Under the pieces are notes generated by a model. The model had not been told where the DNA came from, ran no database searches, and saw only the letters and a list, made by a program, of their open reading frames with translations. From Salminus brasiliensis (taxonomy: Eukaryota; Chordata; Actinopteri; Characiformes; Bryconidae): a DNA stretch of 64,000 bases. Of this stretch, positions 10,201 through 64,000 are shown one piece after another; position 1 is the stretch's first letter, and every line of letters begins with the position of its first letter. The position numbers were made by a program, and so were the translations under genes. The DNA lies in the NCBI RefSeq assembly GCF_030463535.1, contig NC_132892.1:35937489-36001488 (forward strand). Direction: 5' to 3'.

Positions 10201-13200
10201 AGGTTTCTCTTACCCCAAGCCTAGCCCTCACCCTGTCCTAAGATGAATTTAAAAAAGATGTATTTGCACGTACATTAAAGGTCAGTAAACAAAGCATTTA
10301 AAGTGTTCCATCCCCCTGGATATTTTTACAACAGTCCTGAAAATAGACTGACCTGGTTTAACTTGGTCATAATGATGGGCTGGAGGCTGGTATCCACCAC
10401 GTTGTTGGTGATAACTGCCAGGTTATCATTCAGGACATTAATGTCCAGACATGCATCAAACTGGGTGGAGTCATAGCCGAAAGGGAAAGAGCCTTCTGTG
10501 ATCATCACGGCTGTGATGTTGCCGGCAGTACAATCTGTGAGACAGAGAAAACAGTGCTCCCCGAGTTACAGACCGCAGGACTCCTCATTCATAAACACAA
10601 TGTTCTCTTTCACTTTAATGCAGATGATGCTCTATTCAATGTGTCTCCTTCTGCTGCTGCTGCTGCTGCTGGTCTTTAGGCCACCTCCAAACAAGTGCAG
10701 ATTTTCTCCTTGACCTTCATTAGTTTCTGTGTGACCAGAAGCTGGAGTGAAGGACCCTGATGTAACCTTAGTTGCTAGTTTATCATTTCTGTCATATTTA
10801 AGTGTAAGACCCTCGAAGACTGCAATCTATCAAACACATCCTAAATAACGCACATGCTAACCCCACAAGATGCTGAGAAATGTATTGACTGTCTGGTCAC
10901 CCTGTTGTCTCCCTAGATGAGAGTCATCCAGAGCGACTTAAATGCAGGATGACTGCTGATGTAAGTCCTCTCAGAAGAGGAGGGTCTTCAGTCTGGGTTT
11001 GAGGACAGTGAGTGTTGGACTCTGCTGTTCGGACACCCAGGGGAAGTTCGTTCCACCACTTCGGTGCAGGAAAGAAACCTAATAGGCTCTAATGAAGTAT
11101 ATCTTTTGCAGCAGACCTGTAACCTGTAACCTTTGTGGCATTTGCATTTATTGATACTGTAATGTGATCATACCTGCTGCAGTAAGTGCTCTAGATTTGA
11201 CCACAGTGTTAATCTGTCTTAAGAATTGCCTCATCTTCCCAATCTTGATCTTTTGCTCCCTCAGGTCTGGCAGGAACGTCTTCAGGTACCTCTTCTTAAT
11301 AGCCTTTAACACACACATAAATAAAATTACACAACATCTCTGAAATGTTGGATTCATTGAGAACATTGAGAAAGAAGAGGAGTGGATTAAAAAATTAAAC
11401 CGAACAAAAAGTGACAACTGAACAACAAAATGAGAAAAATAGGATAAAATCATAAACAACAGGTTTACTTACATAGGAAAACCTAAGCCAGAAGTCTTGT
11501 TTGAGGTGGAGAGACAGGCTACCCAGCTGGTCCAGAGTCTGCTGAGTCCACACTGAGGGATTACTGAAGACAGAATAGTTTGCATGAGACTTAATCTTAC
11601 GACCCCTGGCTAATTCTGTGTTTTTGTGTGTCTGGGTTAAGGTGTGTCATCCCGGACGAGCCCCCTAATTCTGTTACAACTTGGTCTTGTCTTTACCCAG
11701 ACCCTCTGCTAATTGTATGGACCAGTATGCATTTATTGTTGAAATATTGACATAAGGGTGAGCATTTGCCAGAAATAACTACATAGCTAAATCTGAAATT
11801 AAGCTAATAAACACATGGATTATTACACATGGACATCCTATAGTCCCTAGACTTCTACTGCATGCACTGAATCTGCAATCAGGCACTACTGCGCTTTGCT
11901 CTCATTTGATTGCATCTTTGCGATTCATAACACCACATCGTCACACAAAAACATTCCACATGGATGAACCTGACTGTATACGCTCCAGTAAGAAGCTGAA
12001 CTGGATTTAAAAGATTTTGTCAAGAAAATTCTCAATCGTGTTTGGTCTCCCAAGCAAGTGTTAATGGTGGCCTCAGCTGATGAACCTCACAATTTAAAGC
12101 TGATTCTGATCTGTTTGGATTGATGGTGAACATCATCACAGCTGCAGCTCAGATGATCTCCACTCTCCTCAGAAGGAGGTAACAGCACTAATACACATTT
12201 CAATATCCAACATTTTACATCAGCATTTACAGACTCTCTATCTTGTTGAATTGGATGGATATTAATTGATTCCACATGTTTTCATAATCAATACATGTTG
12301 TTTATGTTGGTGTATTTGACCAAACGGTGCTTCAGCTTCTTTTATTAGAATTCTTGGCTCTGATATTTGAGACCTTTGCTTAATTTCCATAAATGTTGGT
12401 CATCAATATGCATGAGCTCATTAGCATGTGATGATTCACATTCAAGAGTCATTGATTGACTATTAATAAAGACTGCAACATTAAAAAGACAGCTGTGGCT
12501 TAATAAGTAATACTGAAAATACTATTTCAGAGTTTTATGAATCTGGCCCAGTATCTTCTAAATGTTCCACCCTCTTCTAAATAAAAAACACAATTGGCTT
12601 TCATTTTTGCCTCTTACTCTCACTGCTACAAATACTAAGACAGTGTAACTCACATATATTAATATCTGTGTTCTAGTGCTCTAGTATGTTAGTGTTCTCT
12701 TAATGTCTAGGGAACATCATCAATGACCACACACAAACATTTGTTTCACTGATTCAGACAATTGCCTGCGCCTACTGGCAGGCTATGACATCTTTGCAGT
12801 GCATTTCCATTTATCAACCCATGACCTTTCAATACTACATTGCCCTACTCTATTTACATGGCACAACACATAACAAGGTTCCGTAAAATGTCCAGTAAAA
12901 TTACCCATATGGAGTGTTTCCAGAGAACAGCAGTGTCTGTACAGCAGTGATCTGAGAGTCAGAAAGGTCTCCACAGCTCTTCAGTTTCTCCAGGATGAGT
13001 GGGTCAGAGTTCTGGATGTAGGAGGAGTCCAGTGTGCAGACCATATTACCCAGAACCTCCACCTGATCCTTAGTCAGACTCGTACCAGATATACCCTACA
13101 GGAACACAGACCATGTATAAAGTGTATGCAGAAGTATGACCAGGCAGTGACCTCCATTACAATTTTCTCAAACATGTGGATGGTTAAATGCTGTTTCATG

Positions 13201-63301: not shown

Positions 63302-64000
63302 CTACACACACATACACACGCACAGACATGCATATGACCATATATGCTATGTGACATGGTACATTATTATCAAGGTCAGTGGTGGACACTACACATGGGA
63401 ACAAGACTAATTAAAGATGGGACACATCTATCTTTACCAAGCAAAGTTACAAAACGTCTAGGGACAAGTGCTATTTAGACTGTTACCCTAACATTACCTA
63501 TATATATATATATATATTCCTTTGCTTGGTAACAATAACATCTGAATGCCAACTTCATCTTCTGCAAATAAATAGCCCCAACAAAATGCTTAGATCTTGT
63601 GACAATGGCACATCAGAGTCTGGTCAGTACTGCCCACATTTGGGCATCTTCCAGCTCACTAAGTCTAATTACATATCACACATGTTAACAATGACAAACA
63701 GTATTTAGCAGGTCACAAAGTATACTGTTTAAGATTGCACATGGAGAACCTACTAGCCCATATGGCATCCCATTACACTCAAAATAGCCTGAAATGTTCC
63801 TCCATTCATTACCTTACTAGATGTTCTATGACTCTGTATTGGATTTGGATGGGATTTTATTAATTGCTTTGAATTCAAAATCCATTTATGTTGAAAAAAA
63901 ATCTGCCTCGCTGTATTGAGTTCTCATGGGATTTGAATTGTTACATTGAATTTAGGAGGGATTTGTCTGGTGCTGGATGCAGAAGGAACTTGTCTGGGTT

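Follow-up and report, generated by a model that had tools for sequence, protein, structure and literature searches.

Three head-to-tail copies of an 18.3-kb unit, lying within the predicted coding region of a mesothelin-superfamily gene, have been identified in the characiform fish Salminus brasiliensis, in a stretch of 64,000 nucleotides (NCBI RefSeq assembly GCF_030463535.1, contig NC_132892.1, positions 35,937,489 to 36,001,488 of the forward strand) that is referred to here as the window, and in whose own numbering all positions are given. Self-BLAST and a repeat finder, applied to the window, placed the unit starts at 11487, 29822 and 48119, with spacings of 18,335 and 18,297 bp. Self-comparison gave an identity of 99.5% for units 1 and 2; for units 2 and 3 it is 99.5% to the left of ∼57.7 kb and 97.9% over 57229-61980, with the corresponding values for units 1 and 3 being 99.0% and 98.0%. 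The head-to-tail array of near-identical units, proposed in an original prediction made from the letters of the sequence, is therefore real, but the third unit is cut by the end of the window, and the complete near-identical protein modules number two (M1 and M2), the C-terminal part of the terminal module M3 being diverged. The unit boundary, moreover, had been placed between modules and instead falls inside the exon 11563-11473.

Gene model and modules

Exons were modelled with a small, purpose-written, splice-aware gene finder that enforces phase and uses generic fish codon usage. Under a strict intron penalty and this codon usage the minus strand scored 353 and the plus strand 81.5, with eight approximately dinucleotide-preserving shuffles scoring 13-31 under the same settings; after training on the finder's own exons the contrast widened to 806 versus 66, and under a lenient intron penalty it narrowed to 987 versus 600. 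The strand and shuffle scores together place the gene on the minus strand, from beyond 64000 down to 4172, and a plus-strand gene was rejected on the same comparisons. The 96 modelled exons form one open frame of 4,901 codons with a terminal stop at the gene end (4172), divided between the end of an upstream module M0 (2 exons), M1 and M2 (31 exons each) and M3 (32 exons); the coordinates of modules, units and individual exons are collected in Table 1. M3 is near-identical to M2 over its exons 1-23, with two residue differences, while its last nine exons are of another, older type.

For the repeated unit, the original prediction of 31 exons with a total length divisible by three stands, but the modelled length is 4,488 nt (1,496 codons) in place of 4,521 nt (1,507 codons). 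The 33-nt discrepancy can be accommodated by the uncertainty about exon 4 (24449-24349, 101 nt), which has a weak donor and for which a 143-nt alternative ending at 24307 also keeps the frame; the longer form was set aside on the judgement that 101 nt suits the cassette pattern described below better. The predicted 825-nt excess of the stalk exon in unit 3 was recovered exactly (1,286 versus 461 nt). This long exon, which belongs to M0, holds an in-frame 126-nt (42-residue) tandem repeat of 5.5 copies (61992-62672) that is found in neither the M1 nor the M2 stalk, and which may represent a second length polymorphism; N-glycosylation sequons are dense here, with 50 in the 459-residue piece of M0.

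Table 1. Coordinates of the array units, protein modules and exons within the window
Feature	Position	Strand	Description
Unit 1	11487..29821	-	18,335 bp; exons 1-23 of terminal module M3 and last 8 exons of M2; from self-BLAST, repeat finder and exon model
Unit 2	29822..48118	-	18,297 bp; near-exact chimera, left like unit 3, right like unit 1
Unit 3	48119..64000	-	Incomplete at the window end, with 25 of its 31 exons present
End of upstream module M0	61830..63301	-	Exon 63301-63207 and long stalk exon 63115-61830
Module M1	43643..61740	-	31 exons, 4,488 nt = 1,496 codons
Module M2	25299..43553	-	31 exons, 4,488 nt = 1,496 codons; 13 of 1,496 residues differ from M1
Terminal module M3	4172..25209	-	32 exons, 1,450 codons
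Stalk exon of M2	25299..25759	-	End of mesothelin domain and Thr/Ser/Asn-rich linker; phase 2 splice over an 89-nt intron to the first exon of M3
Exon 15 (20215-20098) with ATG-led extension	20098..20268	-	Copies at 38619-38449 and 56914-56744
Boundary exon	11473..11563	-	Intact in M3; array boundary 11487 inside
Founding junction in M2	29649..29898	-	Boundary exon, truncated (29898-29822); spacer of 82 nt; homologous exon, intact (29739-29649)
Founding junction in M1	47946..48195	-	48195-48119, spacer, 48036-47946
C-terminal exons of M3 (seven, diverged) that have internal-module counterparts	4788..11303	-	
Last exon	4172..4260	-	Hydrophobic glycosylphosphatidylinositol (GPI)-type tail and stop; AATAAA further on at 3820

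Mesothelin-type ectodomains and stalks

The mesothelin-like identity first proposed for the protein is confirmed by matches to both the Pfam family and human mesothelin structures. M3 matches the Pfam Mesothelin profile (PF06060) with 262.7 bits, against a cut-off of 25.8, and the match spans positions 40-583 of the 624 in the profile. In M2, the later 760 residues, taken without the stalk, reach 266 bits at the same cut-off, and human mesothelin chains are matched by a 488-residue part of M3 with E-values down to 5.9e-36 (structure 8fsl). The first 632 residues of M2 matched nothing in Pfam at E up to 0.1. Within this N-terminal part, exons 3-14 form three four-exon cassettes with a similar phase pattern, whose pairwise local alignment scores of 80-84 exceeded every one of 500 shuffles per pair (means 32-33, maxima 50-64); a blastp comparison of M3 against itself listed no off-diagonal match. 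At the 3′ end of exon 14, a 70/77-nt tandem repeat at 20604-21217, 38955-39561 and 57250-57730 (8.6, 8.6 and 6.6 copies, respectively, by TRF) multiplies the exon end together with its splice donor, generating a row of near-identical donors that differs in length between units.

The predicted product would thus be a string of large ectodomains, each opening with ∼630 residues (two exons, then the three diverged cassettes) and continuing into a part that matches the mesothelin-precursor family over nearly its full length; Thr/Ser/Asn-rich, sequon-rich stalks would join consecutive ectodomains, and one GPI-type anchor would lie at the C-terminus of the chain. The tail encoded by the last exon, with a hydropathy of 1.62 over 19 residues, is a putative GPI-type signal. 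No second such exon was detected in the units by tblastn over the window, for which the best match was the last exon itself (4261-4175, E 4e-17) and the next had an E-value of 0.23.

Members of the mesothelin superfamily are predicted to form ARM-type superhelical structures (PMC2628672, excerpt), and a furin-type site exists in the human mesothelin precursor (same excerpt). Comparison with the human sequence at this processing site found no R-x-[KR]-R motif in the homologous stretch of the modules, where the internal modules carry IVKR and M3 carries IKKR and KSR; unlike in the mammalian MSLN-type precursor, the motif is thus missing between the N-terminal (MPF) and mesothelin parts, and on this ground the protein is classed as a member of the mesothelin superfamily and not as an MSLN orthologue. 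Furin processing into single modules is for the same reason not favoured, although outside the homologous stretch each complete module (M1, M2 and M3) has an RXXR-containing RPRLGRKK sequence that leaves room for it, and RLKR is present in M2 and M3 only. With the mesothelin precursor, stereocilin and otoancorin of this superfamily, the protein shares the near-full-length PF06060 match, seen in M3 and the later part of M2, as well as a putative GPI-type tail on the last module; it differs from them in that the ectodomain is reiterated in one frame and that ∼630 residues with three cassettes precede each mesothelin part.

Data on the family in fish are thin in the literature excerpts at hand, comprising an uncharacterised Atlantic salmon gene assigned to human MSLNL in a gill transcriptome study (PMC7316992, excerpt) and, for the American eel, a gene table that includes mesothelin (PMC4229938, excerpt). 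A literature search on mesothelin returned no report of so large or so reiterated a mesothelin among the matches listed.

Founding junction and proposed unequal exchange

The exon that contains the array boundary is intact in M3, and in M2 and M1 is truncated at a composite junction (Table 1), in which the intact homologous exon that follows the spacer is identical to the boundary exon at 19 of 29 residues and has the same phase. The junctions of M1 and M2 are alike except for one residue of read-through, and from this likeness we infer that a single non-homologous joint founded the present unit, which homologous exchange multiplied. Truncated exon, spacer and intact exon (29898-29649 and 48195-47946, minus strand) also form a 250-nt composite exon, open and in phase, which, if so spliced, would add a strongly hydrophobic, membrane-span-like segment to M1 and M2 (hydropathy 2.42 over 19 residues).

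Beyond the boundary exon, six of the seven diverged C-terminal exons of M3 align in DNA with their counterparts in the internal modules, and the seventh (11303-11174) aligns only in protein, and weakly so (27.5%, E 0.007). Over these seven exons and the boundary exon, M3 and the internal modules share 220 of 351 residues, with a synonymous divergence (dS) of 0.58, a nonsynonymous divergence (dN) of 0.26 and a dN/dS of 0.44; the DNA alignment between the two types is essentially exonic, except for the boundary stretch and dinucleotide repeats. The old divergence of these exons indicates that the C-terminal part already came in two kinds long before the recent expansion. The junctions suggest a sequence of events in which both kinds would already have been present in an ancestral gene or gene pair, the 18.3-kb unit would have been created by the single joint inside one exon, and homologous unequal crossing-over would then have multiplied it, with unit 2, a chimera of units 3 and 1, as the latest product. 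A repeated element at 18382-18838, presumably Tc1-like, is present at the same site in all three units and therefore predates the expansion; an inverted copy outside the array (5799-6254) is 91% identical to the array copies. TA and AC microsatellites (26114-26180, 27865-27933 and their copies) vary in length between units and are usable as unit markers.

The chimeric nature of unit 2 is evident from private sites, counted over the ∼15.0 kb of alignment columns common to the three units, at 104 of which one unit is unlike the other two. Unit 1 has 24 private sites, unit 2 has 1 and unit 3 has 0 to the left of position 18,000, the corresponding numbers to the right being 6, 2 and 71 (Fisher test on the counts of units 1 and 3, p = 6e-18), so that unit 2, with 3 of the 104, is unit-3-like on the left and unit-1-like on the right. 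On the left, a single substitution and a single 2-nt indel are all that separate unit 2 from unit 3 in ∼6.5 kb; on the right, 10 substitutions and 6 indels distinguish units 1 and 2. Such a chimera has the signature expected of an unequal crossing-over between two units, and of a very recent one.

The same closeness of unit 2 to its neighbours, however, counts against this reading in that it also fits an assembly loop, and genes of this kind could easily be collapsed or looped by assemblies. One of the three units could accordingly be an artefact, arising from a graph loop or from the joining of two haplotypes, with a true allele of two units, an explanation that is compatible with the giant gene and would lower only its unit number. 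The scarcity of private sites in unit 2 and its near-identity to unit 3 left of 18,000 are what a loop would give; real unequal crossing-over yields the same pattern, and the substitutions and indels between units 1 and 2 in the right part show that the copy is no plain repeat of the same consensus, which argues against a plain loop but not against a haplotype join. On balance an artefact appears rather unlikely, and since units 1 and 3 clearly differ and the founding junction is internal, at least two units are present in any case.

The long homologous repeats of complement receptor 1 (CR1) are made of short complement-control domains. Its allelic size forms, with 3-6 such repeats, result from unequal crossing-over (PMC4842007, excerpt), and in the human nebulin gene (NEB) a triplicate region of eight exons, in units of 10 kb each with three per allele, is prone to copy-number change (PMC9109913, excerpt). 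The present array resembles that of CR1 in being built of repeat units within a surface-protein gene, and differs in that its unit is a 1,496-residue mesothelin-family ectodomain in a protein with a GPI-type tail; to the nebulin region it is alike in being intragenic and in comprising three highly similar multi-exon units, and unlike in that the unit is 18.3 kb, has 31 exons and encodes a whole ectodomain, and in being represented by a single sequence. In common with such intragenic arrays, several near-identical multi-exon units lie in frame in one gene, at the sequence level, and homologous exchange is recorded in the chimeric unit 2, a record that an assembly loop could mimic. In-frame multi-exon copy-number arrays are thus already known, and what seems to be new here is a whole 31-exon mesothelin-type ectodomain as the unit.

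The very recent crossover signature suggests that the number of units may be polymorphic, with the reservation that a loop in the assembly would look almost the same. A population-polymorphic giant GPI-anchored mesothelin, changing by ongoing unequal crossing-over in steps of ∼1,500 residues (31 exons, 18.3 kb), so that individuals would differ in reach and valency and the sequon-rich, length-variable stalk would provide finer control, can be put forward only tentatively. Gain or loss of an 18-kb unit would alter protein length in very large steps, and at 1,496 residues per unit would entail a large change of reach. If a transcript spans the units, the locus would offer a natural series for the effect of mesothelin ectodomain number on adhesion, and a clean case of unequal crossing-over in which the founding junction and the newest chimeric copy are both visible in one sequence.

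One giant protein or separate genes

The best-supported reading of the locus is the in-frame giant protein of the original prediction, with its 4,901-codon open frame over 96 modelled exons. The minus strand probably carries one giant mesothelin-superfamily gene that continues upstream beyond 64000, and a transcript spanning the units would be expected. The 89-nt intron between each stalk exon and the next module leaves little room there for a promoter and first exon, and the junction from stalk to next module is in phase in the model, as was predicted for the unit boundaries, though with reduced weight, as the finder enforces phase.

A number of points weaken the case for a single gene. Phase closure is, for the reason just given, not independent evidence of one gene, and closing phases are weakened further in that homologous unequal exchange, after a first in-frame duplication, retains the frame automatically. 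The model is in part a product of hand choice, made by inspection, the exons of one unit also being mapped onto the others with a 1:1 correspondence between repeated units: of 103 initial exons, 12 small or outlying ones were dropped (57465, 50240, 47897, 47734, 39310, 31943, 29600, 29437, 20959, 13608, 10237 and 1512) and 9 were re-ended, and 5 were added (in both M1 and M2 the internal boundary exon plus the exon next to it, as well as the last exon), with the chain still closing in phase after these edits. The prediction that the units are free of starts, stops, polyadenylation signals and GPI exons was upheld for the open frame and the single GPI exon, but not in full: 86 AATAAA/ATTAAA hexamers occur on the minus strand of the window, many of them within units, with one in each 89-nt intron that follows a stalk exon (25279, 43623 and 61810), and in every unit an ATG opens a signal-peptide-like stretch that continues into exon 15. 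No other 19-residue window of the whole predicted protein is as hydrophobic as that at the start of exon 15 (1.69, versus 1.62 for the GPI-type tail), and a scan for ATG-led hydrophobic N-termini yielded 20 candidates, of which 6 precede exon 15 (all three units), 10 are microsatellite-coded and 4 are others. On the model of a giant gene, the first module, the signal peptide and the total number of units would all lie beyond the window.

These features could instead mark tandem separate genes, each starting at the stretch that runs into exon 15, crossing the mesothelin domain, the stalk and the three cassettes of the next unit, and stopping after exon 14, where read-through of the donor gives an immediate stop; the last copy would then be an ordinary GPI-anchored mesothelin of ∼820 residues. 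The recurrence of an ATG-led hydrophobic N-terminus in three of three units and the hydrophobicity of the exon 15 start speak for such an arrangement, but exon 14 ends and exon 15 starts in one and the same phase, the donor and acceptor there score as ordinary sites, the interval from exon 14 to the start of exon 15 is free of AATAAA and ATTAAA in all three units, and the hydrophobic extension ahead of the acceptor may be nothing more than its polypyrimidine tract. In teleost mesothelin-like proteins, the hydrophobic exon-15 stretch is presumably internal, following cassettes of this kind. Separate genes, and with them the ordinary last copy, are thus considered improbable.

Selection between copies bears further on the giant gene. 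Over exons 1-23 (1,038 codons), M1 and M3 differ by 15 synonymous and 13 nonsynonymous changes (dN/dS 0.27), and the 13 of 28 nonsynonymous changes, set against 76% nonsynonymous sites, are fewer than expected under neutrality (binomial p = 0.0006), which shows purifying selection, as read from the substitution pattern, on these most diverged of the N-terminal copies. M1 and M2 differ by 11 synonymous and 13 nonsynonymous changes (p = 0.014, a test that is not independent of that between M1 and M3), and M2 and M3 by 4 and 2. Raw divergence by itself gives no sign of constraint, being higher in exons than in introns between units 1 and 3 (0.84% versus 0.62%) and units 2 and 3 (0.71% versus 0.43%); between units 1 and 2 it is 0.16% versus 0.20%. 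That the array is a young non-functional segmental duplication, a recent accident with most modules free of constraint, accords with the very low divergence and with recent-copy exons no less diverged than introns in the first two of these comparisons, but is rendered highly improbable by the selection between M1 and M3 and by the absence of any stop within the 4,901 modelled codons.

If a single transcript spans the units, the locus would encode a surface protein evolving by the addition of whole ectodomains, a very large step for in-frame copy-number change. Such a protein, with helical-repeat ectodomains strung along glycosylated stalks, would be multivalent and of long reach. By analogy with the family, from which a role in adhesion or at a mucosal surface may be proposed, the giant protein could act as a GPI-tethered multivalent adhesion or barrier protein of an epithelial or mesothelial surface, with reach and valency set by the number of units. 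Downstream of the gene, a minisatellite extends over 2384-3324, with reported periods of 16, 21, 39 and 72 nt.

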